Assembly (NCBI GenBank): GCA_003024175.1
Contig: MDYQ01000132.1
Coordinates: 1-64,000 of the forward strand
Reading direction: 5' to 3'
Length of the DNA: 64,000 nucleotides
Source: Planoprotostelium fungivorum
Taxonomy: Eukaryota; Evosea; Variosea; Cavosteliida; Cavosteliaceae
Position numbers and translations under genes: made by a program. Positions 8,927 through 61,530 of the stretch are shown here, one piece after another (positions within the stretch are counted from its first letter, which is position 1; every line of letters begins with the position of its first letter). The notes under the pieces are model-generated. The model was not told where the DNA came from. It searched no databases and saw nothing but the letters and a program-made list of their open reading frames with translations.

Positions 8927-10704
8927 TCATGCAGTCTTTTTCGTGGCCTTGTTGGGATAAGGAATCGTCAAGAACTTGATGTTGAGAGCCTTGCAGAAGC
9001 CAGTGACAACCTGACACAGTCAGCTCCCTCTTTCGAACGGATTCACCTCAGTGCAGAAGAGGGCGGTGTTGATGAGGTAGAAGATCATCAAGATTAAGAG
9101 TGTCTTCTCTTCGCTGAGGATGGGAGTTCTACGTGAGATTTCAGTCGACGGTTCGTTGTAGATGGACGTCACCCCAAGAGAGAATTAACGGCGGCGAATA
9201 AGAGGGGCAGCATGGGAATGTAAAAGTAAGAGAAGGGAAGCTGACAGATACGTTGCACGATGCACAAGATCTATTTTTACCGTCAGTCGTGAAGAGAAAG
9301 TCGTCATCATGAACACATGATGAAGCAGATGAACGTACCGTCAGATAAGAGAACAAGAGGTTGAAGATGGTGATGTACACGTAAGCGTAACCGTTCTCGT
9401 AAGTAGAGTAAGAGTGGTAAGCCCAAACACCTCCGGCCAGGAGAGAGAGTGTGAAGGGGAAGAGTTGTGTGATGGCTTGGAAGAGGGACACCTGTCGTGA
9501 CGTCATTATACTCCATCTACAACGATGTAGATGCGTCGGTCACTCACTCCCTTAGCTTTCGCGCGAGTGATACCGTCGTACAGTCTGTCCTCGTTCAGCG
9601 ATATCTCTCGGAAATTCGAGTGAAAACTCGTCGAAATCTCTCACCCGTACAGAGTGGTCCACGTTGCCGCACCGATGGTAGCGATCATAACAAACATGCT
9701 CAGCTTGAACGTGAATCCCATCACAGTGTGCTCCACCGTCCACAGTTGTGGTCCAAAGAAGGCCGTCGCTAGATAACCAAACGAAGCGATGACCTGAATG
9801 AAAAGTTAATTCTCTTTCTTGAAGAGATGATTCGTCGAATGTCTACACAGACGGCCTTCAGTTATCTTCTTTACCTCTGCTTCGGTGGGGCCCAACAGAC
9901 CCAGCTCGAGATAGTGGTTGAAATATTCTTGCCAATGAGCAAGGTAGAAGGCGACCATGGCGGGACCGAGCGCGACGAGAGGCCACCACACACCGGCCTG
10001 AGTCACAGAAGCAGATCCCGCGATGATGATCTGTATGTGTTAGAGGGGGATGGATGGAAAAGTGTGTTACTCCGACGGAGAAGGAGTCGACGCCTGAGAA
10101 TGGATCAGATGGGAATCATAGAGGATGAGATGGTGATGAGAAAGATGGAAGAAGGTTGTCACCGTGATCGAGGGCCTCTCCGAGAGGAGTGGAAGAACCG
10201 GTGCGGAAGGCTTGTTTACCGTCCATGTTATCTAAAGTCATGTAGGCAAAGATGAGAACGCCCATCAAGAAATAGACCCATCTGTTCGAAGTGAGTGAAA
10301 AGTAAAGTCGTATATCAGGTGTGAAAGATGAAACGAGAGGAATCAGACAGATACGAACCTTGGGGCATCGGAAATCATATCGGTCATAAAGAGGATAGAG
10401 AGAGTGTAGGTAGCCAGCGTGCAGAACCATCCGGTTAAAGTGAGCTGGTCTTTACGTCAGAATTCATTACCGCTCTATTGTTGTGTGACCGTCCATCTTA
10501 CCAGATTGGGCCTACAACTTTTATCAGCGCCGAAACAATCAGTCTAGACATCTCCACTCACGCTACGTGGGATGGAAGGATGGAAACCAACTTGGCACAC
10601 ATTGGACTGATCCAATACTTGTATAACAACGAGTTGTCATTGGTAGTGCCGGCTGGGTAGATCTTGACCCTGTCTAATTGTTGTTGTGTGAAGTAGATCG
10701 GCAT
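8927..10704 (-). CDS. CDP-alcohol phosphotransferase (choline/ethanolamine phosphotransferase)
   Basis: This enzyme class transfers phosphocholine or phosphoethanolamine from its CDP form to diacylglycerol in ER/Golgi membranes, the last Kennedy-pathway step. About ten exons read from ATG 10704: MPIYFTQQQLDRVKIYPAG, SLLYKYWISPMCAKLVSILP, then APNLLTLTGWF, and the signature around DNMDGKQAFRTGSSTPLGEA with DHGVDSFSVG. Hydrophobic segments follow (PLVALGPAMVAFYLAHW, VSLFQAITQLFPFTLSLLAGG, LLILMIFYLINTALFC), and the end is NKATKKTA. The family signature DGxxAR...G...D...D is intact except that Phe replaces the usual Arg after Ala. The intron at about 9495-9545 contains CTACAACG (9518-9525), and another lies near 9160. 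Choline versus ethanolamine specificity cannot be read. Confidence 0.88.
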
Positions 10705-11004
10705 GATCGATGATGTGTGCCTGCCGCTCACTGTCCGTCAGATTTCTACAGTTCCCAACGAGTTTTCTTTTTTTACAATTCCACAGAAACAACCCTTTTC
10801 TCCTTTTTCATTCATTTCATCTCCACTTCACCTGCTCATCGTGATGAAATGAACCTATAAGACATCTATCACAATGTCTCTTCTTCATTTGTGTGTTCGT
10901 CTGTAAGACGTGTTACAAACTATGAGATGGATCGACTGCATCACACGATCATCATGTCACAGAACAGAGAACAAGAGACGATGAAACGGTTCCTTCTATT
11001 TCTT

Positions 11005-13071
11005 TCAATTTCTCTTCTTTACGATGACGGGAATGGACTTCTTTGGCTGGAGCGTGATGACAGAGTGTGAGTCTGATAGTTCTCTCTTCATCCTGGCTTC
11101 ATCGTATCCCTCGGGGAGGTGAATGGTGTATCTTCTCAATACGTTGGACAGGGCAGCAACCATCTCGACGTTGGCAAACTGATCCATGTCATTCGATGAT
11201 CGAGACGATGATGGATCACGTCCGTGATGGTGAGATCGAGATGATGATGGTGAAGATGGACGATGATGAGAATCGTTTACCTTCTTTCCCAGGCAACTCC
11301 TGGCGCCCTCGCTGAATGGAATGAACGATCCCTTGACTGGCTTCTTCCCCTACGTCCTTCAGCGACATAGGAGATGAATAAATCACATTTTCTCTGGGAT
11401 CGAATCGAGAGGGATTGAACTCGGCGGCGTCTGGCCCCCACACGTCCGTGTTGTAGTGAACTCCGGCAGCGTTTAACGTAACGTACGTATTGGCGGGAAT
11501 AATGTATTTTCCACCACACAGCGTCTACAACGAGTCAACTTTCGATCTACAACCGGCCGTTTCCGATTCTACAACGAGACACACCTGCTCTCGAGGACAG
11601 AATTTCGGAATGTTTGCGACTGGCGGGAACAGCCTCAAAACCTCATAAGCTACCGCGTTCGTGTACACGAGCGAGTTGAAGTCTTCGTACTGCGGCTCTC
11701 TGTCTCCGTACACTCGATCGGCCTGAAACATCCGTGAATTTCTCGAGAAATTTCGTGGAAATCTCACCTCTTCCTTCATCTTCTTTTGAACTTCGGGGTG
11801 CATGGAGAGGAGGTAGAAGGTATACATTAGAGTGTGTGCTGTCGTCTCGTGTCCAGCGATGAGGAAGATGAAAGCGTTGCCCGTGATCTCCCTGTCGGTC
11901 AAGTTTCCTTCGGCCATGCGGATGAGAGCAGCCATGAGATTTTCTTTTCCTTCGTCTGTCTACAATCAGCTATTTCTTAACTCTCGTGATGGACAAGAGA
12001 TGATGGAACCTCTGAAAGAGGAGAGACGTTGCAAGCGATGGTGAAGATGTGATGACGATCATCACCTCTCTCTTCAGAAGACCTCTCTTTCTCTCTCGTG
12101 ACGATGTCCGTTAGGTACTGTCCGAACTCATCGTAAGCGTTCTTACTCTTCCTGATGGAGTTGATGGGGAGCTGGAAGATGAAGTTTGGGATCAATAGAA
12201 TGGAGAACAGTCTGTCCAAGAGGGTGACGAGAGACTGGTAGAAGGACAGCTGGTGATCTGATGTGATATGAGATGGTGATGTAATCGGATGAGGAGAAGC
12301 TCACTGGGCCAGGGTGCAGAAGAATCGGTCCATTTGAAGGGAATACCAAAGGCGGCAGCGGTAATGATGTGTAAAGCCAACTTCATCGTATCGGCCAGAA
12401 CTTGGACTTCGGTTCCATCTGTTGATGTCAACTTGTCGTTCGCGTCCATCTTTGAAATACCTTTTCCCTTGGCTTGAGAGTCCCAATCGTTCATCATCAT
12501 ATCGGCCTGTTTGATGGTTTCGTTCCACACGAGTCGGTTGTTCTTCTCAGAAAAGGGAGGAGAAACGATCTTCCTGTGTAATTTCCAATCGTCTCCCTCA
12601 GTCGTAACAACAGATCGTCCATAGATGTCCAAGATGCCATACTGTTCGAGGGGTTTGGGGAAATCATCACGACGAGCGGCAACCTCCGCGATGGCCTCAG
12701 GATCTGCCAAGAAGATCTGTCGACGTCAGACGTGTCATATAGAATACGATGTTCATACTCCAGAGTAGGTGGGGGTGTGAACGGCATAGACCTGGCTGCC
12801 AGTTTCTTTGTAGGGTTCATACTTATTCTTCCAGATGAACTCAGGATCTCCAAATTTGGTGTAACCGGTCGGTAGTATCTTCAGCTGGTAGAGAAGACTG
12901 TAGGGCAGTAGTGGTTCCTGTGAATCATCAGGTGTCTCTAATCTATCGACATCTGTTACACACCAGAAATGTTGGAATGGTGCGTGATAGAGACTTGTAT
13001 TTGTTATAGAAACGAGAGATCTGCAGGAGTATTCCTACGAGGGAGGCTACACCCACGATCGTCCACAGCAT
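11005..13071 (-). CDS. Cytochrome P450
   Basis: A heme-thiolate monooxygenase, probably ER-bound. From ATG 13071 the protein starts MLWTIVGVASLVGILLQI, a signal anchor, then YKSLSRTIPTFL. Later exons give the C-helix WKLHRKIVSPPF, the I-helix oxygen-binding motif IFLIAGHETTAHT, the ExxR motif YEVLRLFPP, the PERF-like region FNPSRFDPREN, and the heme loop FSEGARSCLG with its ligand Cys. It ends IPVIVKKRN at 11005. All core motifs are present, so the enzyme looks functional. The frame after GGKYIIPAN fits a CYP4/CYP3-clan-like enzyme, but substrate and subfamily cannot be assigned. Introns are short; the one at 11525-11584 holds three copies of the intron 11-mer. A longer ATG-less extension to 13155 was not chosen. 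Confidence 0.93.
11525..11584 (-). other. Intron with three copies of the CTCGTTGTAGA motif
   Basis: Read in the P450 direction, this 60-nt intron begins gtgtgtctcgttgtagaa and ends ctcgttgtag, joining REQ to TLCGG. A third, slightly altered copy (ggttgtagatc) lies in the middle. The intron's first 18 bases differ by one base from those of the UBE3C intron at 30534-30597. The motif itself supplies the 3' splice site. Confidence 0.8.
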
Positions 13072-14523: not shown

Positions 14524-14697
14524 GCTGCTGGATGTTCGTGAGGTGAGAGTCTGACTGGGAAAGGTGCGAGAGCTGCGTGTCTCCTCTCAGGAGGCAAGGA
14601 AGAATGTCCTCTTCGCGGCGTGTTGGTTTTGTTCCTGCTTACGCGCGAACTCTCCCCCTCAATTTCTTGGCCGGGACATCTGTTGACAACACCTTAG

Positions 14698-15802: not shown

Positions 15803-16140
15803 ATTCTCTCTTCAGCGAAAAGATACCAATATTCATCTCTACATCGAACATCTAAACACCCCACTTGAACGAATCACCATCGTCAACCTCTTCACTCTAC
15901 ATAGCGACAACTGTCGGCGACATCGACAGGGATATGTACCTCTTTAGGACCACTCAGGAGGGAAGGAAATTCCACGATCTACAACGGGATCAGACGAAGT
16001 CCCGAGTTTGTGTCTTGTAAACCGGGAATGTCTTCGGCACCGTCTGCAAATTTATCCGCCTTCCATCACAACGAGAGACGCAGATAACGTTAGACCTTCC
16101 TTTGTAATCCTCGATCATCCACACATTCACACAGACACAC

Positions 16141-19100
16141 ATGTCGAACCCTTTTGACGCCAAGGTTGCCGACTCTCTAGAGGTCAATGGAAAGACATTC
16201 AAGTATTACAACTTGAACAAGCTGAACGACAGCCGTCTGGGTGAGTTGCAAGGACATGTTCTGCAGGAATCGACTGACGATCATCCACAGAGAGACTCCC
16301 ATATTCCATTCGTGTCCTCCTCGAGAGCTCGCTGAGAAACTGCGACGGAAAGAAGGTTCCAGAGTCTGATGCCGAGACCATTCTCAACTGGGGTGAGTCA
16401 TTCGGTCGATCTCCTTTATGGCTGAGCTCCTTCGCAGAGAAGACACAGAAGGAGAGCGTAGAGATCCAATTCAACGTGGCTCGTGTCCTCCTTCAAGATT
16501 TTACCGGTGTTCCCGTCGTCGTCGATCTCGGTGAGATGCAGATTAGAGGAGGAGACGCTCACCTTCCATGCAGCTGCCATGAGAGATGCTACAAAGAGAC
16601 TGGGAGGAGATCCTTCCATCATCAACCCCGCCGTCCCCGTTGATCTCGTCATCGACCACAGTGTCCAGGTGCATCCACCTTCTCTCATCTCGTTCATCGT
16701 CTACATCCTCTCCACCTTCACATCTCTCATTCTCTCTCGTCCACTCATCCAGATCCAGATCGATTCGTACGGAACTGCAGACTCTCTCCAGAAGAACTTG
16801 GAGCTGGAATTGTACCGCAACCGAGAGCGTTTCATCTTCCTCAAGTGGGGCTCTGGCTCCTTCGAGAACGTCACGATCGTCCCGCCTGGCGCCGGTATCG
16901 TCCATCAGGTGACCCATTCGGCCCGAAGCATGAGTAACCATCATCAGGTCAACTTGGAATATCTCGCCCGCGGAGTTTTCGAGCGCAACGGTGTCCTCTA
17001 CCCCGACTCCCTCGTCGGAACAGACAGGTGGAGTGAAATTCCGCTGAAACTTCGTGACCGCGTACAGTCACACCCCTATGGTCAACGGCCTCGGAGTCTT
17101 AGGCTGGGGTGTCGGTGGTATCGAAGCTGAAGCCGCCATGCTCAACCAACCCATCTCCATGGTATTACCCGAAGTCATCGGTGTCAAGCTGACCGGTAGA
17201 TCTACGTGAAATTTCGCAGCTGACCACCGCAGGTACTCTTCCCACTGGATCTACCGCCACCGATCTCGTCTTAGCCATCACAGCTGCCCTGCGTAAGAAG
17301 GGCGTCGTCGAAAAATTCGTCGAATTTTACGGACCCGGCACGGGCTCCCTCTCCATCGCCGACAGGTCGGTACATTCGAAATTTCCCGGAAAACTCACGT
17401 GGAGACAGGGCTACCATCTCGAACATGGCCCCCGAGTATGGAGCTACCGTGGGATACTTTCCCATGGACGAGAAATCTCTCGGTTACCTCCGCCTGACCG
17501 GCCGCAGCGAAGAGAAGATCGCCTACATCGAGGCCTACCTCAAGTGAGTCCCCTTCCTCTCACCCGGACCAATCTTTCGTGCAGGGCCCAGGGACTCTTC
17601 CGCGACTACCACCAAGGCAGCGACCCCGTCTTCACTGACACATTAGAGATTGAATTGGGCAACATCAAGCCCGCCCTGTCTGGACCCAAACGTCCTCACG
17701 ACTACGTCCCCCTCGCCGAGATGAAGAAGGACTTCAACTCTGTGAGTTCTCCGCGAGTTTTCCACCACATTTCTCACCGTCTCCAGTGTCTCTCCAACAA
17801 GGTGGGATTCAAGGGTTACGGCATCGCAGAGTCCGAATTAAAGAAGACGGCCACCTTCGAGTTGGACGGAAAAACGGAAAAACTGTCCCACGGTAGTGTC
17901 GTCATCGCTGCCATCACCTCGTGCACGAACACGTCTAACCCATCGGTCATGATTGCCGCCGGTCTGGTAGCTGAGAAGGCCGTAGCCAGAGGCCTCACCG
18001 TAAGCAGAGCCGTCAAGACCTCTCTCGCCCCCGGGTGAGACACCGAAATCTCCCGTTACGTGCGTCAGATTGACTCGTTGTAGATCGGGAGTCGTCACGG
18101 AATATCTGACCAAGTCGGGTCTGTTGAGCCCCCTCGAGAAGTTGGGTTTCTACCTGGCCGGTTACGGTTGCACCACTTGCATCGGTAACTCTGGACCTCT
18201 GTTGGACGTTGTCGCTGATACCATCGAGGCCAACGACATCGTTGCCGCCGGTGTTCTATCGGGTGACCCTCATCATGAACATCATCATGATGGAGCATGA
18301 ACCTCATCATGATGAAGTCACGTGACCTCAAGGCTGACTCCCACCCAGGTAACAGAAATTTCGAGGGAAGAATCCACCCCAACGTGAGAGCCAACTACTT
18401 GGCATCCCCCCCCTTGGTCGTCGCTTACGCTCTCGCCGGTACAGTCGACATTGATTTCGAGACCGAGGCCATCGGCAAAGACAAGGAGGGCAAGGACGTC
18501 TACCTCAGAGACATCTGGCCCTCTCACACCGAAGTCGAACAAGGTGAACTGTCTTTAGAAGTCAAGAGGGTGGACGTTGACGATGTGCAGTCGTGTCAAA
18601 GAACGTCCTGAGAGAGATGTTCCAAGAAGTGTACCAGAAGGTGACCCACGGTAACGAAGGCTGGCAGCAGCTGCAAGCTTCTCCCTCCACCCTCTATCCA
18701 TGGGACCCCTCTTCCACTTACATTCACTTCCCTCCCTACTTTGACAAGATGACGAAAGACGTGAGGGAATTTCATTGGAATGCGACTCATCTACAACGAG
18801 ATCAACCCCGAGACCGTCATCGCTGGAGCCCGCGCCCTCCTTAACTTGGGAGACTCCATCACGACGGATCACATCTCCCCCGCCGGTAACATTTCCAGGA
18901 AATCACCCGCCGCCCGCTACCTCGAAGCCAGAGGGTGAGTCCGTCTACAACGAGCCACTTCCGACCCTCCCCCAGGGTCGAACCCAAGGACTTCAACTCG
19001 TACGGCGCCAGGAGAGGTAACGATGAGGTCATGGCCCGTGGTACCTTTGCCAACATCCGTCTCGTCAACAAGTTGCTTGGCAACGGAAAGGCCGCCCCTC

Positions 19101-19762: not shown

Positions 19763-20213
19763 CCGCTCCACGCCAGATGGTACGCATACGACTCTTGCGT
19801 TCAGAGGATAGACTACAAGGAACACGAGATGTGAGAGATAGAGGGGGTGTGGGATGCAGCTGACCTCTTACGTTTCAAGGAGGACGTGCTGACGATGGCG
19901 AGGGGAAGCCGTCTTCCAGCTTGTGCATCACGCAGAGAAGTGAAAGATATGCGAGGCCGGTGCTGTGAGAGGGTTGAGACTGAACGGTGACAGAGGTGCA
20001 CGATGGAGGAGAGAAGACAAATTCAGTCGTGTGCATTTATCTGTATAGAGGACAACCACCATTCTATGAGGATGGTCTCAACTTATCGATTGGAAGATAC
20101 GAACAGAAGGGTCTGTTGATCAGTCACGTCAACTACAGCACTGAACATGGTCTTCATTGACAGGTGACTTCATGTCGAAGAACTGGACTGAATGATGGAG
20201 ATCTCTCATCGGA
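19763..20213 (+). pseudogene. Uncharacterised family, copy B (5' part only)
   Basis: Matches exons 1-2 of the gene at 2220-2975. Two stops appear where copy A has codons: TGA in GAGATGTGAGAG (A has GGG, Gly) and TGA in CTTCATTGACAG (A has AGA, Arg). The third exon is gone, replaced by the second half of an F-box exon. A host gene copy broken by substitution and deletion. Confidence 0.8.
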
Positions 20214-21787
20214 GATCATCAACTCTCGCGATCCCAATCACCGCCACTGGTGGCGTTACAAGAAGCAGCTGCCTACACACAACAGAGAGATAGTCAAATG
20301 GTGGATAACCAACATCCGAGAGCCTGTTTATGAAGAAGCACGTGACGCTGCTCACCGAGATGATCTGGACGTGCTCGACCTCCTTGGTTGGGACAACTCT
20401 CAGGCATCACCTCGCCACCGTAACCTATGTCAACCTGGCTGGAGGCGAGAGATGATATTGGTGGAAGCCCTCGCGAAAGGAAGCAAACAAACAATCAACG
20501 CTTGTCACCAGAAGGAAGACATATCAGGAGCTCCCTCAGTCAAGGCCCTCTGGGCACTGAAAATTTGGCATAGACTCGGGGAGGAAGGAAACTTGGAGGT
20601 GATCCGGTGGCTGCACAACGAGCAGAGTATAGAGGGTCTTCCCTCTGTCACGTGGCCAGAATCCATCTCAGATTACGCATATGTCTGCCTTGTACATGCT
20701 GCCAAAGCAGGACACAAACACGTCATCAGTTGGTTCAAGGAAAGAGGCGACATACCCGTCCATGAGATGTGAGTTTGAGAGAGAAACATCGTAGTGACAA
20801 TCAAGTTACAAGGGGGCTGCAGAAGGAGGTCGCGTGGATGTGCTCGATTGGTTGGTGAGTGCTGAATGATGATAGATAGTGACGCTGAGACAGGAAGAGA
20901 ACGAGATACATCTCAATGTAACGTCGAGTGGTTGTCCCAAATTGGAAGATTTCGTCCAATCGTTAGCCGTGTTTGAATGGGCGTTGAGGGTGAGTCGAAG
21001 AGAGCAAGCTGTATCGAAACGATGGTGTGACATCTCAACAGCACAATGTTCCAAGAGGATATCATGATCGCACCTGTACATCAGCCTTACGTGCTGGTTG
21101 CGCTGAAGTGAGGAGATATTGAAATGCTGACGTAACGAATGATTCAGGTGATGAAGTACTGCATTGAGAATCAATTAAGCACCAAAATATATACAATGCC
21201 AAGTATCATTTCGTCACACGAAAACCGTAAGGTGGAATCTCAGTTTCATCTTTCTAGCATCACTCAACGGGATACAGGCCGTGCAGTTGGCCATCGAACA
21301 CGGCTACATCAACAAAGAATCGCATCTTTGGTTCAAGTCAACTGATGAGCAGTTTGAGCTGATTTGCTGGATGCACGAGAGAGATATCCTCCATCCTGAG
21401 TTGTCAGTGTACAACTATCGTGACGTCACACACTGACGAAGGACAGTTTTCACTCAGCCAAAGCGTATGGCAACCTCGACGTTCTACAATGGGCAGCAGA
21501 GAAGGGTTATCTCACCAAGATAAATGCAGGAGGATACCGAAATGCACCGTCTGAATTCATCGAATGGATGATGAAGAGTGAGATGGATGATCACAATCAC
21601 ATGGTGACATTCGATCAGTGTTTGATATCGAAGAGATCGAGATTTATCATGAGATTGCCATGCAGAACTGGAGGAATGTGGTCGTCGACACAGAGTTTGG
21701 AGAAAAATATGTGATGACATGGGAAATAGAGCCAATCGAGTGGATGCTGCAGAGAAAGTGGAACAAGAGCCAAGATGAGGTACAGAG
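19763..21787. repeat. Inverted duplication, right arm (B)
   Basis: Reverse complement of 1-2977, lacking the equivalent of about 1571-2516. The left limit at 19762/19763 pairs with 2977, where similarity stops on both sides. The right side reaches position 1 of the window and therefore could extend past 21787. The spacer between the arms is about 16.8 kb. Confidence 0.92.
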
Positions 21788-22152: not shown

Positions 22153-24293
<2,141 letters not shown>

Positions 24294-27194: not shown

Positions 27195-27403
27195 ATCGGA
27201 CGGCGTTCATTCGTGATGGGTTCGTGTGCATTTATTATTTATCTGAATTTTTTCCTGAAGAGAAGCCATCACTATGACTCACATCATCGTCGTCGAATTC
27301 TCTACACTACCTCCGTTCGTTCAATCTTCCTCATCTCGGTTGTTCCTACATCAGCACGAGCTATATCGTCCTCCGAAGATTCTTTATTCACAAGAGGGGA
27401 CGT

Positions 27404-30400
27404 TCAAGAAAGTTCGAATCCACTCCTCGACCCTATGGCATAGAGAAACTTCTCTCTCATGATGGCCAAGTTCGTGTAAGGCGGCATCTTTAAAAAGTTC
27501 ATGCAAGTCGAAGCCGTGGGTAGGAAGCCATCAGTCGAAGCGTTGGCCTCTTGGTCTATGGGTGTCATCCTGTGGATGCAGAATTTCGGCTCTACGTTCT
27601 TGAACCCTAAGAGGGGTGGCTGCATGATGTCGGTGTCGGATGATGAGAGGGACGCACCCTCGAACATGATGTGACGAACATGAGGAGCTGTTGCTGCTCG
27701 GAGACAGAAAACCCTTCTAACATGTTCCAGAAGCGTTGTATGACTGGATCGTCTGCGGAATAGCCACCAGAGTATGTGGCATACTTCTTCATGTCCTCTA
27801 CATCGATTCTACCGGGGTTTCCACAGATGATTCTGTGGATCTACAACGCGTCAGATTTTTCTGTGACGAGAGAATAAAAGTAAATAAATGGAATTTCACA
27901 TCTCATCGACGAAAAGAAGGATGCGATGATAAAAAAGAAAATGAAAAAAAATGAAAAGTGAAGAAAAAATCTTACCTCGTCTTGTGAGAACATCTTGAGG
28001 AGTTCGACTGGAATCAAATCGGTGAAACCTCTTAAGAAGGCAGCGGACTGTCTCTTGATCTGAGTGTTCAACTTATAATTGGCCATCAGTGCAATGTATC
28101 GAAATTTGTTCTCGTTCGTAACGGCCACATTCTTTCCATTGGGAATGAGATCGATCTACAACGAGTCAGTCGGACCGTTGTAGATGAACAATAGATGAGA
28201 ATAAATGTTCACCGTATGATTCTGACCGTAATCGTTGTCGGTGATGGTGAAAGTCAGCGACAGATCCTCCACGTCCGCGGTCTTCAGAAAATTTAGATTC
28301 TTATACAGCACCGGGTCCAGCGATCTACAACGTTGTAGATCGATTTTTTCCTCTTCTCACCCCAGATCATTGATGAGATTGAATTTTCCCATCAATTTCG
28401 CGATGAAGAAATTTGCAAACGGAATTTCGACTAGAACTCCCTCGTAGATGGCCTTTCCTAGAATTCTTCCCAGGAATTCGAATTGTTCAAAGTCATCAGG
28501 GATGATGAGATGAGACGTCGGATTTGGATAGAGGGCCCTGTCGTGTGTCTCTTTGAAGAGACCGTAGTCGGTGTTGTATGCGGCACCTGGTGGGGTGAGA
28601 AAAAAAAGGGAGGGGATGGGATTCGAAACGAAGCCTCACGGAGGAGTTGGGTGAGAAATTCTTTGAAAACGCCGCCGCCGTCTATACCTGCCTCGGCCAT
28701 ACCGAGTTCACCGATGAGCTGTACATGGTGTCAATATCCATCTACAACGAGACAATTTCGAACGTGGCGAGGTGTAGAGAGATGTTCTCTCGAAGAGATA
28801 AAAATGGATACCTCTTTCGAGAGAATAAAAAGAAATGTCACACCTCGACTCTTACTGTCTTCTTCAGTCTGCCATCCCCCAAGTTCAATCGACTGAAGGC
28901 ATCCTCGAAGATGTAATCCCTCCTTATCTTCACCCTGACGCTATCATAAAAGTCCCTCTGCTGACTCGTCCTGTCCCTCGCTAGTTCTTCATAGAAGAGA
29001 TCGACCCTCTTTGTGAAAGGAAAGACGAATGGAATATTCTTCATGCATTCCTCCGTGTAGTCTTGAGATAAGAACTGCCACTGCGTGTCGACGAGCCAGA
29101 ACATCTCGTTGCAGAAGGTGCGGCGACAGCTGGGGGAGGGTGAGGAGTGGCGGGTTGTAGATGGACTCACTTGCGGTCGTAGAGTTGTTGGAGGAGGAGG
29201 GTGAGTTCGTCTCGTAGGGAGGTGGACTTTCCTTCTTGGTACATGCGAAATGTGATGTCCTGTAGATTTCGTTGGAAATTTGAGTGAAATTTGATAAAAG
29301 GGTGAGGGAAAATGGATCGAACAAGAAAAGTTGAAAATTGTGAGAATGAGGAAGAGATCGAGAAAAGAGAGAAAATTAGGAGAAGAGAAATGAAATTGAG
29401 AAAAGAAGTAAAGAAAATTTCCAATTTGGAAATAATTTTCACCTTGAGAGATCTAACCATGACTGACATTTCTTTCAGAGAGAAAGTAGTTTGTGAAAAG
29501 AATTCTTCATCATCCATTGTCACCAACAATTGTCTGTAACACCTGCTCACGTCACGATCGGCCGGTTGTAGATGGACTCACCTGGCAAACAACAAGAGCA
29601 ACAAGATGAAATCCTCTGAAACCGACTTGGTCCCTTCCTTCTCCAACTCTTTCATCTCGCTCGTCACTTTTTCCCTTTTAATCGTGATCTACAACGAGCC
29701 ATTCACCTGATATCCCGTTCCACATGATTTTGACCAGAGGCGAACCGAACGTGAGCACGCTCAATATGGGTGCTTTCATCTTTCACCTTAAGTCAGCGAG
29801 TTTTCATCGACATCTCCACACCTCCTCCCACTGTGACTGTAGCTGACACAATATCCCACAGAAGTGTACGTAACCTACGTCCAGAGTGTCGGCCAACGAA
29901 GGTTCTCTCTTATTCTGAGAAATTTCCGGGAAAGAAGAGATGATTCTGCGAACGGATTGACCGTCGCAGAGGCTTCGAAATGGAGCGAGGAAATTTGGAT
30001 CTGAATTCTGCGTCAGGGGAGAAGAGGAAGAATACATAAAATAAAACATGTATAATAGATTCACCCGTGATGTTACCATTGAAAAACTTGCGGATGTTGC
30101 AGAGACGTTGGAATCGATTGATGAATTGTAGATTGATGGACTGTACGGAGTCAATGTCTAACGCATCCAAACGACGCGTGTCATGGTGCATGCATGTCAT
30201 GATGAGATGTTACGTGTGATGTCTCACTCGTGATGCGATACACGTGAAAGACATCTTATGGAGTAGGTATGATATCGTATAGAGACACTTCATATTCCAC
30301 TCACCACGATGTACCTCGTCCTCACGTCACTTCCATTCAACACCAACAACAGCAACCGATAGAGGTTGGACAGCAGCCAGTCTTTCTGCGTCAGCTCCAC

Positions 30401-31589
30401 CTCAGCCACCGCATCCATCATCTCTTCATCATCACTGTGAGAATCCTCTCTCCTCCTCTTTAAAGTCGAATTCGATTGAGAATGTGTGTCTCTCGCAAAT
30501 TCAGTGGAAGGATCGAAAGAAAGGAGGGAGACACTGAAAGCTGCCAGCGAAATCTGCGACGTCTCAATGTTTCGGGACCTTCTACAACGAGGCACACCTG
30601 GATGGCTGGGAGAGTTCGGAAGAAGATATCTCTGATCGAGAGGATCTCCCACAGGAAGTCTCGGTTCATCTTGTCGTTTGCCTTCTCATCTGCGTTGTTC
30701 CTGAACCGCAGGGTTCGGATGGCGATGGTCATCAGAAACACGGTGTAATTCTTGTCTCGATGGGTGTCCAATAAGACTCGTATGGATGCCAAGAGGCCAG
30801 ACTTTGTGAGATCACCGACCATGGTCCCGATGCATTTCCTATCGTGATGTGAGATCGTGTGGATGTGAAGAGAGTGAGGGTCGTTTGTGGACGTTTTAGA
30901 ACTCACTTCTTATATTCTTGTCCTCCGGGTGTGTCGAAATGATAGAGATCTGGGTTCGTGAAGTAGAGGAGAAATTTGACGTGGAGTTGAGGTACGTCTC
31001 TGAGCCTGGAAGACGAGAAGAGGAGGAGCTTCTTCATCAGAAATGTCCATCGAAGTGAATCTTCATTCGTTCTGTAATGAAGGATGGGTGTTCGAGGCTT
31101 CGAAGCCACGTGTTGTTGAGCGCAAGAGACGAGTGCATTGCAGAGGAGGTCCAGACGAGATGCATCTTTCTGTGGAGAATAGAGAATGACGAGAGAGCGT
31201 ATGGCGTGCGTGAAAGGCTCTAAACTCGTCGGCTGTGAGCTGCGGAATGTTTCAGCTGAATCCGTTCGTGTGACGATGTGAAAATGGGAGTCTTTGTACC
31301 CTTTGAGTCGGTTCATATCTTCATCCCACTGGTGTCTCTGTTTCTCCGCTACGTTTTGAATGGCACGATGGGCCCTCCAGTTCTTCTGTATACACTGTGT
31401 TGCCTTCTCTCTATCCCTCTGTCTCTGTCTCTCTTCTCGTAACTCGATTTATGTCAGTATCTCCCACCCCACCCAGTCACACACCTGCTGTGCATTTTGC
31501 AGGAAGTCTTCTTTATTCTTAGACGTTGTATTGTTCGAGCGATTGGAGCGAAAATTGACCTTTGGTTTTAGCTCCTCTCCGAAGAACAT
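27404..31589 (-). CDS. HECT-type E3 ubiquitin ligase, UBE3B/UBE3C (Hul5) type
   Basis: Passes ubiquitin from E2 to substrate through a catalytic Cys; Hul5/UBE3C acts with proteasomes on partly folded proteins. The N-terminus MFFGEELKPKVNFRSNRSNN is followed by an IQ-like helix (TQCIQKNWRAHRAIQNV). Central exons are helical and unremarkable. The HECT part has ANYKLNTQIKRQSAAFLRGF, SGGYSADDPVIQRFWNMLEG, PPLLGFKNVEPKFCIHR, and the C-lobe LPTASTCMNFLKMPPYTN, whose Cys (codon near 27504) is the catalytic residue. It ends SRSGFELS at 27404; the -4 Phe position typical of HECT tails is kept. Many introns carry the 11-mer in either orientation (27840, 28155, 28324, 28741, 29688, 30581). Confidence 0.93.
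30534..30597 (-). other. UBE3C intron sharing its start with a P450 intron
   Basis: In the gene direction it opens gtgtgcctcgttgtagaa, one base different from the P450 intron at 11525-11584. The rest of the two introns does not match. Confidence 0.75.
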
Positions 31590-39293: not shown

Positions 39294-44347
<5,054 letters not shown>

Positions 44348-46000: not shown

Positions 46001-49000
46001 TTAACCCAACAAGGGTGATCCGCCCAAAGCCAAACTACCTCTTCCATTGTTCGACTTCATGGCTTCCCTCCCCAGACGACTCAACTCCATGAACGTTGGC
46101 CTCTCCTTTGGATTTGTCTGCAAGCTGAAGGAACGTTAGACATCCTACTCTGAATGAACTTCTCTCACCTCAATTTGACGAAATATTCCATCTGTCTGGA
46201 TGTGACGTCGTCGCTGTATTTTGTGAAGGACACTTCTGTTAAAGGTGAACACTTGATTTCAGGGTGGAACAAGAGGACGATGCTGTACCTGATGGATAGA
46301 CTCTCTTCTCCATGATCTGTAAGGCTAAGATACCAAAAGCCCACACTTGAGATGCTTCTGTTGCCGATCCATCTCTTCTCTCGGGTGCCTGATTCGTGCG
46401 TGAGAAAAAATGAAGGTTAAGAATTCAAACATACCAAGTAGAGGGCAGGTGGTGTCAGGTGTGTTCTAAAGTCCCACAGCTTCAGTAAGATGCCCTTGTC
46501 GCTCGACTGCACGATGACTTTCTCGGCCGTCAGGATATTTCCTTTCGTTCCCATTTCAACGAGATGTGCCATGACGTTAGCCAGTTGGATGACACTGTCG
46601 ATGTCAGTTTGATGATCGTGATGATGAGATGTTGATGATGATGATGCGATGGATGATCCGATGAGCTCACGCTTGTTTTGCCATGTCGTGGTCATACTTT
46701 CCCTCTTCGATCCAACGGTATAGCGTGACTCCAGGGATGTAAGTGCTCACGAAATAGGTATCACCATTGACGTAATTCCAACGACCGAGATATTGAACGA
46801 TGTTGATGTGTCTTATCCTCTGTTCGTTCCATTCAATCTCCGTCGTCTTATGCAAGAAATAAAATAGATTAAAATGGATAATTACCTGGAGGACGAGATC
46901 TGTCTGACCATCTAACGCTTTTCGAGTTAAGACAACATCAGCCATCTGTTCTTCATTTAGCGATCCTGTTCTCGTGTTTCTCTCAGACTTCACCTGAAAT
47001 TTTGCTCTCTGACATCTGGATGACATGTGTATGTCTGTCTCACATGTCAGTATGTCTCCGATTTTCCCGCCAAAATCGTCTCACCCATCAACTCGATGTG
47101 CTCCGTTGGGATGAATTGATCTCCTTCTGCTCCCATCTCTAAGACCCATTCCTCCGTGTGCGTCTTTCTAGCCTTCCTCTTTCTCATGACGATGATGAGA
47201 GCGCTCATCACCGTCATGACGATGAAGCCGCCGGCACCGATGACCGCCCCTGCCACCTCGTCACGTACCGTACGTACGGTCTCACTCACACTTCCAGATG
47301 CCATCGGTCGATTTCTCTTGTGAAGCACCGACTATACCATCTTCTCTTGTAGTTCTCTGCAGTGTGAAGCTGGTGAGGTGATCGCACAGACAAGTGACAG
47401 GCTGACGCGTGACGTCTGTCTGACAGCCTTCCGGTCTCCATAGTGACTGGGATTTGTCCCACCACACGCATTTGAGTTCTTCTCCATCTACAACGTTGTA
47501 GTTCATGCCGATCGAGATGGGTGACGGTGTGTCTCTGATGGAAATTTCCGTGGAATTTTCGGACAATACGGACAAGGAGATGATGTCGGTGTGACTTTGT
47601 CGAGTGAGTCACGTGACCACAGTCATCCTCTCACCTGGAGGCGTCGACTTTGACAAAAGGATTGAAGTTGTAGATGGACAGAACAACGACACTGTTGTTC
47701 GGTAGATTTTGAGTCACATCCGCGGGTATGATAGAGGTCGTGTTGCTGTCGATTATATTCAATCTCGCGTCCCTTCCGTTGTAGATCTATATTCGTCAGT
47801 GGAGAATTCATTAGAATGAAACCCACAGGAGAGGCTGCGACGGTCACGTTCGCAGATCGCAAGAGGATGGAGGAATTTCTCATGTTTGCGAATGCGATTC
47901 GCAGGATGAGTTCGTCGATCTTTTCGGGGCACACGGTCCCAAAAATTGAAACCCCGCTCAACTGTGGAGTCCCATCAAAAAAAGATTAAAATGATTTAAA
48001 TTCGAGTACGATGAGACGAAATCTCACCGATGTGACATTGTAGTCTCTGAACAATCGTTCACAATCGACTGATGTGTTGGAAGCGTCAATTGTGGATGTG
48101 GAAGACATCGATGTTGATGTGGAGGCCGATGTGGATGTAGAAGTCGATGTCGATGGATCAGCAGTCGTCGATGCGTTAGACGTTGTGACGAGGGAAGAGG
48201 ATCCGAATGTTGATGTGGACTCCGTTGTAGATGAGGTAGAAGATGTCGATTCCGCAGTAGATGTTGTCTCAGAAGTAGATGATGTGTTGAACGTGGATGT
48301 GGTCGATGCCGTTGTAGCTGAGAGATCATCGGTGGTGGATGTCGTCGATGAAGTTGATGTCGTTGATTCAGTTGATGTCGTTGATTCCGTTGATGTCGTT
48401 GATTCCGTTGATGAAGTTGATTCCATTGATTCAGTTGATGTCGTTGATTCCGTTGATGTCGTTGATGAAGTTGATGAAGTTGATGTCGTTGGTTCCGTTG
48501 ATGAAGTCGATGTCGTTGGTTCCGTTGATGATGTGGTCGATGTGGATGTGGATGATGTCGTAGGTGAAGTGGATGAGGTCGTGATGGATGATGTCGTCGA
48601 TGGCATCGTAGATGACGTGGTCGATGTCGATGAAGTGGACGATGTTGTTGATGACGTGTAAGGTATCGACGATGTGGTAGGAGGTATGAATCCACCTAAT
48701 CAAATCAATATCCTTCACATCGATGTCGATGGAATGATGATTGTGCTGATGAATGATATCTCACTGTACGATATGGTTCCGTAGCCGATGATGCCGCTGT
48801 CACATCCTGATGTGACTCTCAATGTAGATGTTGCACTCGGATTCAAACAAGCTGGAGCCGTGAAAGTGATCGACGTTCGATTGATGAAAGATATGACGCA
48901 AGAGGTGCCGTCTACAACGACGGTCGGATTACCACTGAAAAATTTCAATGAAATTTCCGTGAAATGTCTTCGAATATTACCCCCAGTAACGACCGACGAG

Positions 49001-50249
49001 AGTGACTGGACCTCCGGAGGGAGGAAGGATGTTGCTGACGATGCTGAAATTGGGAGTGTAGCAGACACAAGTGGCACCACATTTGTTAGCGGCCCAGCTT
49101 GGAATGGGACAAGCGAAGCGAGGACCGGGTGCCGATCGTCTACAACGCAGAATCAGTCCATGGTGTCAACATGCGACATCGACATCACCCTGTAGAACTC
49201 ATGCGACAGACGGCTCCACTCATGAGAGGCGATGGACGGTTGATGTCTTCGAACTCGTCGAACTTGTTACCGGTGATGTCTAAAGACGTGAGGCTCGTGG
49301 GGCTCACGTTGGCGGGAAATACACCTTGTATTCTATTTCCCGGCTCGTAAGAGGCAAAGTCACCCTCTAAGACTTGATAGCCGAGACTGATGTTGGTTAA
49401 TGACGGTTGCGTCCATATACCGAGAGGTATAGAAGTCAATTGGTTGCATTCTGCCTGTGGAGTGGATCAGATGGAGGATGGGAGATGGTCTTGATGAGAT
49501 GATTCACCCTCAATGTGACGAGCGATCTCGCGTTGATGATGTCATTTGGGATCGAGGTGAAGTTGTTACGGAAGATGAAGAGGCGAGTGAGCTGAGAGAG
49601 TTGTCCGACGCCGCTGTATGGAGAGTTCCAGCCGCTCAATTGGTTGTACTGTATGTCCAACTGGCGATCTGTCAATCAATGTAAACCGATCGTTCACCTC
49701 CTCACCGTAATTAGATTGACGAGACCGGAGAGGTCTGGAACGGCTCCAGTGAATTCATTGTAGCTCAATGTGAGGTACTGTAGATTCACCATCTTGTTTA
49801 GACTCGATGGGATGGATCCATATAAACCTGATGGACATCAGATCGATCGAAGAAATCGTTTCATCTTGCAGTGAAAATCGTTCACCTCTATTTCCTGCCT
49901 GAGCGGAATTTTGGGTGATGGTAAGCGTCTTAACGTAGTACAGGTTAGATCCGAAACTATCATTCATAGTCCCGACGAGGTTGTTAGACTGCAGAACGAC
50001 CGAGATGATGTTACCAAAGAAGTCACAGGTGACTCCTGATGCTGGACATGCCAGCAGAGGATTATACCAACCGAGTGAGCTCGACCAGCTATAACCTGAG
50101 AGGATCAGAATGAAGAACCATCTTGTACCTTCATCACCTCCCGCACTATTGTACAAACCAATGAGATCCTGTTTCTGCGTGATAGGGAGCTGCGCTTGAA
50201 CTGTCAACAGGCATCCCATCCACAGACACATATAGAGGATCGCATGCAT
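46001..50249 (-). CDS. LRR-TIG-mucin-GPS receptor with pseudokinase domain
   Basis: From ATG 50249: signal peptide MHAILYMCLWMGCLLTVQAQ; a plant-like LRR cap (CPASGVTCDFFGNIISVVLQ); leucine-rich repeats (LTRLFIFRNNFTSIPNDI, LTSLDITGNKFDEF); a TIG/IPT-like part (FINRTSITFTAPACLNPSAT); a Ser/Thr-rich run (48040-48640); a GPS motif CVWWDKSQSLWRPEGC with VTCLCDHLTSFTL; a membrane span VIGAGGFIVMTVMSALIIVM with a basic stop; then a kinase fold: ADVVLTRKAL, HINIVQYLGRWNYVNGDTYF, TYIPGVTLYRWIEEG, APERRDGSATEASQVWAFGI, NPKERPTFMELSRL, end GGSPLLG. The catalytic HRDLxxxN reads KGNILTAEK and DFG reads DFR, so catalysis is unlikely. The joint after the membrane segment (about 46980-47090) is not certain. 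Probably a cell-surface sensor. Confidence 0.82.
48040..48640 (-). repeat. Coding tandem repeat, Ser/Thr-rich stalk
   Basis: A degenerate repeat of a 15-base unit like GTTGATTCCGTTGATGTC (plus strand, best at 48340-48560). In the receptor's frame it codes for TSTESTTSTE-like residues, a likely heavily O-glycosylated stalk. Other frames encode VDVVDS or repeated His/Arg runs and are shadows. Confidence 0.85.
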
Positions 50250-55463: not shown

Positions 55464-55636
55464 CTGCCGTAATTCCCAACAGACAAATTCATCAAGATCA
55501 TATCATCATACAAGGAAGGCCTATGCATACATTCCTTAAGCCTATCACTCGATCACCCCTTCAGACCCATAGATAGCATATCTTGCCTTGATCAAAGACT
55601 ACACAAGAGGAGAAATAGCCCTATCACAATAATAAT

Positions 55637-57361: not shown

Positions 57362-57861
57362 GGATAAGTTTTGTGACGATGGACAGCTGCTGCTTTCTCG
57401 TGTCGTCGAGATTTCCTGCCGAGACAAGACGGACGTGAAAGGAAGGCCTTCAATCGCGTGTCTCCCTTGTTTACATCTCCTGTTGATTCGTTGCAAGAGC
57501 TAGTGAACTGATATCCTTTCATCGAAACCACCCCCACCCGATCAGGCGAAACTGGCTCAGATCAGCCGATCAATACATTACGATGCATCCAGATTCCTCT
57601 CTCTTTCCTTTTATTCATGCCGAGGTCGATGTCTATCCGGTTTGTCTGTGACCTGGTCTGCCGAGAAGTACCAACCAGTCTGAGGGCGAAAATCGATTTT
57701 CAGCGAATTTATTGTTGGGGTTCAAGTTGTTCCGAGACATCTGCACAGAGGGCACACAACACCAGTCTCACGCATTATCGGTTCTCATCGACAGCTCAGC
57801 CATCCTCTGTAACGGCTGACATTGATGAGAATTCCAAGGTCAAGACAGCCGACATTCGAAG
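57362..57861. promoter_or_regulatory. Divergent region between ATP6V0B and CLEC16A
   Basis: Presumably the promoters of both genes. A small plus-strand frame (57617-57919) runs into CLEC16A in a different frame and is discounted. Confidence 0.45.
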
Positions 57862-60800
57862 ATGTTTAGGAATCTGCTGGAATCTCTCAAGCCAAAACCG
57901 AAGGCCAAGTTTTCGTTAGAAAACCTACAGTAAATAGATCGTATGATAATGTAACGTCTAACGCCTCTCAGATACTTATATGAACAGCTGGTGAAGAATC
58001 CTACGATCAATGAGCAGAATAAAGCTCTCATCGTGGAGACTCTGAGGCAGATCGCTGAGCTCCTTATCTGGGGAGACCAACATTCCCAGGATTACTTCGA
58101 GTGAGTGCGATCAGCTCGTCACAAACACGAAAGACATTCTTATACTCTTTATCCCGCGTCAGTTCGAACCACCTCCGTTCCATCCATTTATAATCATGAC
58201 TCATACGTCTAACACGATCAAGTTTCTTCCTCGAACACAATATCATGGGATATTTTCTCAAGATCTTGGATCAGACAACGAATCATGAAGTGCAGATTCA
58301 ACTGATTCAGACCCTCTCCATCCTCATCGAAAACATCAACAACACGAATTCTATCTGTGATGATCGTCTCCCTCTACTTCCACTGATCTCATCGCAGATT
58401 TCATCTTGTCCAACAATCATCTGAATGAGCTCATCACGCACAAGTATGATTTCTCCGATGATGAACTCCTGGCTTATTACATCTCCCTCTTAAAGACGCT
58501 ATCTCTGAAACTCAACGTCAGTACCCTCCAGTTCTTTTACAATGACGTGAGCTCCATCCCAACATCTCATCCACCATCTCATCACCTTCCATCAGAAGAA
58601 CAACGACTTTCCTCTCTACACGGAGGCCATCAAATTTTTCAACCACAAGGAAGCCATGATCCGCATCGCCGTGCGAACACTCTCACTCAACGTCTACAAA
58701 GTCAAAGATGAGAACATGAGGAACTTTATCTTTGATAGTGCCGCCGCCCCTTATTTTTCCAACATCGTGTGGTACATTCGAGAGCAGTGCACCACCCTCG
58801 ACAATTACGTCGTCAACTCAACGTGAGTTCACGGTGCGTCGCATTCAATTGAACCGTTGTAGATTCTCGAACAAGAACCGATTGGAAGATTTCGTGGCGG
58901 AATTGATGGATTTCTTCTGGTACCTGCAAGATATCTTCGATCTGGGTATACCTCAGATGAGCGAGGTGAATACGCATCGTTACGCCTCTCTACAACGAAC
59001 CAGGTTCTGTCGGACCACTTGTTGAAGTATCTCATTCTTCCCCAATTCATCGGCTCGTTGCCCATCAACGGAAAAATAGAATCGAATCTGGAGGATCAAT
59101 TGTCCCCCGTGTGCAGTATCTTCTTGCTGACTCAGGTGAGATCCCGGGAACACGTGCTTTTCCCGGGAATTTGAGGAAATCCCAGGTCTTTCACATCTTC
59201 ACGTACAGTCCGATGCTGAACGCGGTGGCCGCCGCCATCATTCACCCCTCGTCGGAGACGTACGGTACTTCTCCAACGAGGGCCATCAGGTACGTCTCAT
59301 CTACAACGCTGTAGACGGAATTTATTTTTTCAAGTCTGAATGATGAACAGTGTTACCCCCGTGAAGCGAACGTATTCATCACCGGATCTGTACAAGGGTA
59401 ACCCCGAGGCAGAAAATCGAACGGAAGCCGAAACGACGGAAGAGGTGGGGTTGAGGCCGTTCCCGCCTAAATTTTCTCAGAACGTTCCGAAGGGGGAGAA
59501 GACTGAGGTGACTCTCGAAAGAGGAACCGACATACTCGCCGACGGCCGGCCCAAGAACAAATACTACCAGGTAAATCTCGACGAAATCTCGCGAGCATTG
59601 TAGATTGACATTCCAGGTCTTGATGGGCTACCTCAACGGAGAAGAGAGGACGGCTCTCAACGTCATCTGCCTCCTCTATTCCATCACGAAATCCAACAGT
59701 GAGCCACATTTCATCCATCTACAACGCTCAACTCTACAGACATCGACAATATTCTCCTCGAATATTCTGGGTTGTTTCCGTATCGTCTGTACAAGGCAAA
59801 GAGGCTATTAGAAGCTCTCATCTTTGCTGACAGCGAGCACTTTGATAAAGAACCAGAAGAAGAAGGAGCCACGAGTAAGAGTGCGGTGGTCAGGAGGAGG
59901 TGAGAAAATTCCGAGAAAATTCCGAGACTCTGGAAATATTCTCGTTGTAGATGGATGACAGTGGTAGATCGGGCGTGAAGGGTAACAGTCACAGTCGCAG
60001 CGTGTCAGATGGTGCGGTAGTTTTCAGCTCGGAGAACAGAGGTGACATTTCTTCGAATCTTCTCGACCCCTCCCCACCCCGTTCCCGCCAAAATTCTGCG
60101 ATCCGAAAAAAGTCAAAACAAACGACTCACCTGCTAGTAGAGAACACGACGTCCGCTCTCAACCCGACGGAGGCTATTGAAGAGGCGGCGAGCTCTACAT
60201 CCAACGGCACGGATGGTCACGTGACCTCAGAGGATAAGAACAAGAGGAAAGACAGTCACAACATGCGAAAGACTGTCTTAGAGAAGAATTTATTCGACGA
60301 AAAAGAAGAAGAGAGGAAGCCGGTGGGAGCGTTGTAGATCGTCGCAATCCATTGAAACCATGCAGAATCAAGAGTCGGCCAGTGTCAAATTGGTCGAGCA
60401 CCTCCTGACCTTCCTCTTAGCCTGTGGAGAGTATAGACTCATCACTCTACAGATGGTCACCCTCCTCATCAAAGAGCTCGTCTACGTTCAAGACACGGCA
60501 CCCAACATGAAGCCGAAACAGTTGGAGCTCATGAAGGTAAGCGTTGTAGACGACCGGAGAAACGGAGAAACGGAAGATTGACGGAAAATTAGACGGCCTA
60601 CGAGAAGGTGGTGCAGACTCTGTACGAGTCAATGCAGGGAAATTTGGGAAATAATATTTTCCTCGAATTATTCGAAGACCAGCTGAAGACGTACAAACGT
60701 GAGCGTTGTAGATACTGATTAAATTCGATTAAATCATATCAGAGATCAATTTCGACTCACTCTTGATGGACTGCGCCACCCTGCTCCTGCCCGTCGCCCA

Positions 60801-61530
60801 CACCCCCGTGGCCGGTATCGGTGAGTCCGTCTACAACGAGCCACTCCCCCCTCACCCCCACCCTAGGTCTGTCAAAGAGACTCCCTTCCGGTGAAGCTGA
60901 GAGGATGCAGAAGAACATCCAGTCCTTTTTGGCCATCCGTGAATTCTACTACACCATGTTGAACCAGAAGGACGACGCCATACCTCTTAAAGAGCTGCCG
61001 TCTGCACAAGTCAAGTTGAAAGAGGTCATCGGTTTAGAGGGGAGGGACTTTATACCGTGTGCTATGGCTGTCGGTGCGAATAAGAAGAAAGTGAGGAGGT
61101 GGCTCGTGATGGAGGCGGCCAGTCTTCTCATCTTGGAGCCGACACCGACACCGACACCGGGGACTCCATCTTCTAATGATGCCGGTCGGGGGAGGAGATA
61201 CTTTGGTTCGGTGACGCACATCTTACCCATGCAGAGTATAGAGGTGAGAAGTGATTGCCTCAGAGGTATTAAGACGTCAACAGATGCAAGCCGATCCAAA
61301 TGACCCTGCATCATTGAATCTAGCGTGCCACCCCCAGACATTCAGCTCCTCCATCTCCTTCGAGAACACAGACCACTGTAAGATCTCCTTGACGAAGCTG
61401 GACAAAGCCAAACACAAGGTGATTAGAGGATGGAAATGAATGGGAAATAGATCGGATGATGATGACTGAGACGCCGCAGGTACGGAGCATGAAGATGAAA
61501 CAACTGGAGACGATACTGAAGATCGAATAA
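57862..61530 (+). CDS. CLEC16A: CLEC16A/GOP-1 family protein (FPL domain)
   Basis: A conserved endolysosomal/autophagy regulator in animals. [20 protein letters not shown], then [53 protein letters not shown] and [18 protein letters not shown] form the FPL region. Further conserved blocks: [77 protein letters not shown] and [21 protein letters not shown] low-complexity insert (59340-59560, 59990-60320) is polar. It ends [12 protein letters not shown] at 61530. About 20 exons; at least nine introns carry TCTACAACG or its complement, the densest set in the window. Confidence 0.9.
60821..60866 (+). other. CLEC16A intron, twin of aconitase intron 15
   Basis: A 46-nt intron identical over its first 25 bases to 18935-18959 in the aconitase gene, with a similar C-rich tail and CCTAG acceptor. 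Joins AGI-G to [14 protein letters not shown]. Confidence 0.85.

Follow-up and report, generated by a model that had tools for sequence, protein, structure and literature searches.

A strict pseudo-palindromic motif of the shortest predicted introns in Planoprotostelium fungivorum: a candidate DNA recognition site

A short word, TCTACAACG, recurs far beyond expectation in a 64,000-nucleotide stretch of Planoprotostelium fungivorum DNA (contig MDYQ01000132.1 of assembly GCA_003024175.1, positions 1 to 64,000; hereafter the window). It is largely confined to very short predicted introns of unrelated genes, where it stands in either orientation, and at five loci it forms abutting dyads. We tentatively favour, with somewhat less than even confidence, the explanation that this word belongs to a strict, orientation-independent, pseudo-palindromic DNA recognition site of about 18 bp, which is kept in tiny introns by selection.

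Abundance, footprint and intronic location of the motif

The window contains 36 exact copies of the 9-mer, 23 on the plus and 13 on the minus strand, which occupy 34 loci, the perfect palindromes at 28324 and 40139 being each counted on both strands. Markov models of orders 1–3 built on the window predict 0.36–1.58 copies. For the 11-mer TCTACAACGAG 14 copies were registered (11 on the plus and 3 on the minus strand) instead of the expected 0.03–0.14. A preliminary description of the same DNA had counted about thirty copies in either orientation and held that an 11-mer should occur far less than once per 64 kb; both statements are borne out by these numbers. All 28 coordinates given there correspond to exact 9-mers, 27 of them within 2 bases, while 60713 should read 60704, and copies at 9154, 15978, 28176, 48223, 49139 and 58989 were omitted. 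Exact matches in introns number 30 for the motif and at most 4 for each of 200 shuffled words composed of the same letters. By its specificity for short introns the 8-mer TCTACAAC ranks first among 23,278 8-mers (p=1.6e-17, uncorrected). No description of the word TCTACAACG was found in open-licence PMC literature, where the matches listed were apparently unrelated, nor in the papers on introners, amoebozoan introns and intronic motifs from the same source; Rfam gave no matches at gathering score (4227 families), and tRNA genes were not detected in the window.

Introns were predicted by a self-trained gene finder, whose training was supplied with no information on the motif; the second of two gene models, with a minimum intron of 30 nt, gave 244 introns, 163 of them not exceeding 70 nt. 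Under both models 30 of the 36 copies are intronic and fall into 26 distinct introns, as anticipated by the earlier claim that nearly all of them reside in introns of unrelated genes. The density of TCTACAAC drops with intron length from 3.69/kb in introns of up to 70 nt (28 copies in 7,598 bp) to 0.79/kb in those of 71–130 nt (4 in 5,057 bp) and 0.15/kb in longer ones (1 in 6,874 bp). Exons contain 2 copies in 27,336 bp (0.07/kb) and unassigned DNA 5 in 17,135 bp (0.29/kb), four of the latter (47487, 47667, 47778 and 48224) lying in a receptor-like gene missed by the models and the fifth (15978) upstream of aconitase. An equal density in exons and intergenic DNA, named in the preliminary description as a sign that would refute its reading of the motif, was not found in the window. 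Altogether, the 8-mer is carried by 23 of the 163 short introns.

The conserved unit spans about 18 bp, and outside it similarity is at or near background. The core TCTACAAC is followed mostly by G, with a weaker consensus TCC(A/G) before and AGnCA after it. When 33 intronic copies were aligned on the 8-mer, pair identity was 1.0 in the core, 0.83 at +8, 0.42–0.51 from −3 to −1, 0.40 at +12 and 0.53 at +13; the far flanks gave 0.27, the background being 0.25. Short introns contain 25 exact, 7 one-mismatch and 12 two-mismatch copies, the corresponding means for shuffled words being 0.1, 1.7 and 20; the one-mismatch class comprises three copies of the variant TCTACAACC, two half-sites completing dyads and two further variants.

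An inverted half-site at zero spacing accompanies 7 of 40 oriented occurrences (5 loci), with 0.17 expected and no more than 2 found at any other offset. The loci where this abutting half-site matches 7 or 8 of 8 positions are 9516, 28324, 40139, 47487 and 59300, so that the four palindromes or near-palindromes noticed earlier become five dyads, perfect over 22 bp at 28324, 16 bp at 40139 and 14 bp at 47487. In ATE1 two further copies (22882–22899 and 23245–23262), about 360 bp apart, form an 18-bp inverted match (TTGTCAATCTACAACGAG).

Both orientations are used in introns, 11 copies being sense and 19 antisense (p=0.20), and the core heptamer is divided 13:13 in genes scoring at least 100 and introns of up to 130 nt (136 of 218 introns). 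As a control we took the branch-point-like tetramer CTGA in 121 distinct introns of up to 70 nt from genes scoring at least 60. It is found 43 times in sense and 6 times in antisense orientation in the 102 motif-free introns; with the second model the ratio is 52:10 (143 introns). Avoidance of AG in introns (226 AG versus 364 CT) may account for part of this bias; it would also penalise the antisense motif, yet the antisense motif is not depleted.

Positions within introns of up to 70 nt are not random. A start 5–10 nt from the 5′ splice site was registered for 11 of 25 copies, where 4.5 would be expected (p=0.002). Six of 25, instead of an expected 1.5 (p=0.003), make up the 3′ splice site; this figure is partly circular, as the gene finder chose the sites. 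With the same circularity, the models agree with the earlier remark that some copies supply the 3′ splice site: seven copies do so with GTTGTAG/A (the slash marks the junction; six are in introns of up to 70 nt), and so does copy 18790, where the intron ends with CGAG/. This bias can be read as a site fitted around splicing signals, the branch point occupying the 3′ half and the antisense motif offering TAG. Introns of the window are generally compact, down to about 36 nt, and branch-point-like CTGAC or CTGAT stand mostly 8–19 nt from the 3′ splice site.

Support for the gene models and coordinates of the copies

The first gene model fused some exons into long “introns” (28325–28516, for instance, contains an exon). 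The second one recovered the missing UBE3C exon, leaving the main motif counts unchanged. Pfam scans, made mostly on one guessed strand per region, supported P450, aconitase, ATE1, HECT (UBE3C), isoleucyl-tRNA synthetase (IleRS), FPL/CLEC16A, GPS, DSPc, CBS and other assignments; the phosphotransferase fell below the Pfam cut-off, yet was clear in comparison with the solved structure 8ero (E=7e-24). Two whole predicted proteins and two model parts were compared with solved structures. The predicted aconitase aligns to IRP1 (2b3x) over query residues 2–889 without gaps at motif introns 18035, 18761 and 18935, UBE3C is gap-free against 6k2c at introns 28156 and 27841, and IleRS against 8c9e at 40132, with a 3-residue gap two residues from the junction of 42176. 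Thus 6 of 28 motif introns have a gap-free junction against a solved homologue, and the remaining ones are predictions. The best phosphotransferase alignment stops short of the two motif introns of that gene, and UBE3C introns 28325 and 28719 adjoin alignment breaks. The IleRS gene (39626–43700) gave its best matches with 8c9e, 8c9f and 1ffy rather than with entries named cytoplasmic; judging by these best-scoring structures it may encode an organellar enzyme.

Table 1. Motif-bearing introns (including two with the variant TCTACAACC only) and non-intronic copies in the window. A slash marks the splice junction.
Position	Strand	Feature	Motif copy and remarks
9129..9172	-	44-nt predicted intron, choline/ethanolamine-phosphotransferase-like gene	9154-9162 sense, 10 nt after 5′ splice site
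9492..9547	-	56-nt predicted intron, phosphotransferase-like gene	near-perfect dyad 9516-9531
11525..11584	-	60-nt predicted intron, P450	three antisense copies 11524, 11546 (TCTACAACC), 11568; 11524 forms 3′ splice site
18035..18083	+	49-nt intron, aconitase/IRP1-like	18076-18084 antisense, 3′ splice site TTGTAG/A; gap-free vs 2b3x
18761..18800	+	40-nt intron, aconitase	18790-18798 sense; intron ends CGAG/; gap-free vs 2b3x
18935..18975	+	41-nt intron, aconitase	18944-18952 sense; gap-free vs 2b3x; end-to-end like introns 60821, 29130
22842..22915	-	74-nt predicted intron, ATE1	22889-22897 antisense; frames by eye suggest true intron ~41 nt
27841..27975	-	135-nt intron, UBE3C HECT	27840-27848 antisense at 3′ splice site; gap-free vs 6k2c
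28156..28212	-	57-nt intron, UBE3C	inverted pair 28155/28176, 14 bases between 8-mers; 3′ splice site in motif; gap-free vs 6k2c
28325..28360	-	36-nt predicted intron, UBE3C, second model	3′-terminal perfect palindrome of 22 bp (28321-28342) supplies 3′ splice site
28719..28811	-	93-nt predicted intron, UBE3C	28741-28749 antisense
29130..29170	-	41-nt predicted intron, UBE3C	variant TCTACAACC sense, 9 nt after 5′ splice site; end-to-end like 18935, 60821
29534..29581	-	48-nt predicted intron, UBE3C	variant TCTACAACC sense, 9 nt after 5′ splice site
29616..29706	-	91-nt predicted intron, UBE3C	29688-29696 antisense, 10 nt after 5′ splice site
30554..30597	-	44-nt predicted intron, UBE3C	30581-30589 antisense, 8 nt after 5′ splice site
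40132..40175	+	44-nt intron, IleRS	perfect 16-bp palindrome 40139-40154; gap-free vs 8c9e
42176..42215	+	40-nt predicted intron, IleRS	42181-42189 sense, 5 nt after 5′ splice site
48852..48980	-	129-nt predicted intron, receptor-like gene	48911-48919 antisense
49140..49188	-	49-nt predicted intron, receptor-like gene	49139-49147 antisense at 3′ splice site
58823..58862	+	40-nt predicted intron, CLEC16A	58855-58863 antisense at 3′ splice site
58966..59003	+	38-nt predicted intron, CLEC16A	58989-58997 sense
59290..59350	+	61-nt predicted intron, CLEC16A	dyad TCTACAACGCTGTAGA 59300-59315
59699..59739	+	41-nt predicted intron, CLEC16A	59718-59726 sense
59900..59961	+	62-nt predicted intron, CLEC16A	59943-59951 antisense
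60323..60365	+	43-nt predicted intron, CLEC16A	60330-60338 antisense, 7 nt after 5′ splice site
60537..60576	+	40-nt predicted intron, CLEC16A	60542-60550 antisense, 5 nt after 5′ splice site
60699..60742	+	44-nt predicted intron, CLEC16A	60704-60712 antisense, 5 nt after 5′ splice site
60821..60866	+	46-nt predicted intron, CLEC16A	60830-60838 sense, 9 nt after 5′ splice site; end-to-end like 18935, 29130
15978..15986	+	non-intronic copy	~160 bp upstream of aconitase ATG
22801..22809	+	copy in ATE1 coding exon	translates to GVVDV on - strand; a probable chance match
23247..23255	-	copy in doubtful predicted ATE1 exon	18-bp inverted match with 22889 copy
47487..47501	+	copy in receptor-like gene	14-bp perfect palindrome (47488-47501), reads as coding (NYNVVD); GPS motif match on same strand
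47777..47785	-	copy in receptor-like gene missed by models	exon or intron
48223..48231	-	copy in Ser/Thr-rich coding repeat, receptor-like gene missed by models	probably chance

A second, weaker word, TGACGTC, resembling the cAMP response element (CRE), is found in 14 copies (2.2/kb) in introns of up to 70 nt versus 0.29/kb in exons; its intron excess is partly due to donor sites and to duplicates of an F-box-containing protein family. Several copies of this family, with similar introns (5175–5879, 20161–20772, 26538–27206, 1–1489 and 63452–63997), apparently represent a recent expansion. In its separate gene models (first model, introns of up to 130 nt) 0 of 8 and 0 of 10 introns have the motif, and a search of viral and prokaryote contigs for relatives of one of its proteins found none.

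Explanations considered

The DNA-site reading, which we put first, takes the motif as double-stranded DNA recognised by a candidate protein. This protein would probably bind as a dimer, because the full sites are abutting dyads TCTACAACGTTGTAGA, and might affect transcription, chromatin or splicing. Selection would retain the site in sequence that very short introns can spare, fitting it around the splicing signals: it would either follow the 5′ splice site directly or, where its TAG is suitably oriented, serve itself as the 3′ splice site. Free orientation, a near-invariant core with graded edges and the dyads are all covered by this assumption, and the exactly zero spacing of half-sites counts for DNA, because a hairpin in RNA requires a loop and could form with loops of various lengths.

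Several observations weigh against it. Of the features expected for a dimeric site, a dyad with fixed spacing and independence of orientation were observed, whereas upstream and intergenic occurrence was not: in the 500-bp zones upstream of 18 predicted starts, which contain 6,142 bp of unassigned DNA, copy 15978 is the only one, and a generic DNA-binding site should occur there too. The spread of copies over genes is uneven, though weakly (permutation p=0.028; first model, introns of up to 130 nt), CLEC16A having the motif in 9 of 22 introns and four of 11 genes having none. Seven one-mismatch copies against a control mean of 1.7 indicate that some decay exists, one full dyad (47487) appears coding, and three introns matching from end to end, discussed below, suggest common descent.

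A bolder version of the DNA-site reading, which we consider doubtful, is that tiny introns serve as dedicated, distributed docking sites for a single putative DNA-binding factor marking gene bodies. It would fit a strict site used in either orientation, present in about one seventh of introns of up to 70 nt and largely absent from exons and intergenic DNA. No description of such an intron-borne docking signal was found in the literature searched.

Second comes an origin from introner-like micro-introns, a serious competitor that we nevertheless hold unlikely. An element of about 36–60 bp, or the 18-bp pseudo-palindrome itself, would have been inserted both ways and spliced out as an intron, the motif being the part recognised or copied by the spreading machinery. 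Such an origin accounts both for the restriction to short introns and for the free orientation, but not for an exact core with unrelated flanks at or near background, since neutral relics should decay evenly. Introns 18935, 60821 and 29130 of aconitase, CLEC16A and UBE3C are alike from end to end (90%, 85% and 85% over 40–41 nt; E=8e-10, 1e-7 and 7e-6), which at E≤1e-5 and in unrelated genes suggests, from sequence comparison, common descent for at least these three; their similarity is partly that of the donor consensus, the motif footprint and a C-rich tract. A fourth pair reaching both ends, in opposite orientation, is 18761 of aconitase and 60323 of CLEC16A (86% over 29 nt, E=0.001), and within UBE3C introns 29534 and 29130 are alike over the 5′ half of the latter (E=2e-5).

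When only the core was masked (139 introns of up to 75 nt, four models and the F-box stretch being left out), same-orientation pairs of motif introns scoring at least 11 made up 5 of 276, against 0.8 in shuffles, and opposite-orientation pairs scoring at least 13 made up 2 of 276, against 0.0; the latter include 18761/60323 and 18761/58823. Masking of the whole 18-bp footprint together with donor and acceptor, in 28 motif introns of up to 135 nt, left none of 10 tests of residual similarity below 0.05 (p from 0.053 to 0.62). Excess similarity is also shown by non-motif introns, with top pairs among the matches listed being largely CATC-type repeats. Besides, 24 of 28 motif introns contain a single copy, and no intron with the 9-mer has a sense copy near the 5′ splice site and an antisense one at the 3′ splice site, as terminal inverted repeats would be arranged. 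In-register direct repeats, the trace of target-site duplication, average 1.68 nt in motif and 1.85 nt in other introns of up to 130 nt (p=0.81; 180 introns kept after leaving out three F-box-family models and genes scoring below 60).

In the available text of Gozashti et al. 2022 (PMC9860276), introner families have at least four members sharing sequence up to both splice boundaries, and part of them carry terminal inverted repeats and/or target-site duplications. Three introns of the window formally qualify by the pairwise threshold of that survey, which kept families of four or more. A precedent for spreading with no such duplications is provided by the Hypoxylaceae, where symmetric proliferating introns devoid of flanking duplications are described in the accessible part of PMC8469720. 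Support for the introner-like family supposed earlier is partial: three introns match end to end, but over the 28 motif introns nothing significant was detected beyond the footprint, nor were paired terminal repeats or a duplication signal. Both readings may also be combined, in an introner whose recognition sequence is kept.

Third, and improbable in our opinion, is a splicing element acting in RNA, either an intronic enhancer or complementary segments that fold a tiny intron or link neighbouring ones. Intron confinement and the clustering near the 5′ splice site and at the 3′ splice site speak for it, and intron 28156 folds unusually well (z −5.9). Position bias, however, would arise as well for a site that has to keep clear of the branch-point zone, which lies in the 3′ half, and both strands are used (11:19, heptamer 13:13), in contrast to CTGA, a control partly confounded by avoidance of AG. 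The shared intronic splicing signal offered earlier as an alternative is for this reason not favoured. In introns of up to 130 nt from genes scoring at least 60 (161 introns) the mean fold z was −0.58 (standard error 0.28, n=27) with the motif and −0.29 (0.10, n=134) in the others; motif introns are not clearly more structured, which leaves RNA hairpins unsupported as a general explanation. Donor and acceptor scores are equal in motif and other introns of the set used for direct repeats (p=0.55 and p=0.62), so compensation for weak splice sites was rejected as well; donors GTGAG or GTAAG are found in 15 of 28 motif introns versus 53 of 152 others (p=0.09). The role of a branch point was also rejected, the branch-point-like signal being CTGAC or CTGAT, present in 30 of 102 motif-free introns of up to 70 nt.

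Finally, chance, simple repeats or skewed composition, to which numerous CATC/GATG repeats and the chance-like copies 22801 and 48223 in coding DNA might point, are practically excluded as the origin of the motif by the Markov counts, the shuffled words and the short-intron specificity given above.

Significance and comparison with known systems

An exact, orientation-free, dyad-forming word concentrated in the smallest introns would mean either that introns are used in a new way, as regulatory DNA space, or that introners of very small size are present. Both readings bear on why short introns persist and how they arise, and they can be tested with the genome assembly and related species.

Palindromic transcription-factor and operator sites are characterised by a strict core, graded flanks, freedom of orientation and dyads of fixed spacing. 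The motif shares all these features and differs from such sites in its concentration in short introns, with one copy upstream of a gene. Motifs of plant intron-mediated enhancement are short, dispersed in introns and act near the promoter. The present word is likewise short, dispersed and intronic, but its copies are scattered throughout the gene in either orientation. To our knowledge, conserved intron words of protists and yeasts are strand-specific splicing signals.

With introners, as presented in the available texts of PMC9860276 and, for Amoebophrya, PMC7789003, the motif has in common that a repeat occupies introns of unrelated genes in both orientations, in some cases at intron ends forming the splice site, and that three introns are alike end to end. 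Unlike the introners described in the accessible part of PMC9860276, the unit shared here is 18 bp long, is mostly present once per intron and lacks a signal of target-site duplication. The symmetric introns and stwintrons of Hypoxylaceae, according to the available portion of PMC8469720, resemble the introns of the window in having a short palindrome (10 nt there) in short introns with no flanking duplications. However, those introns are alike over inverted repeats of 45–55 nt, and their palindrome is often degenerate in earlier-diverging copies, whereas here the core is exact and the rest of the intron is mostly unrelated.

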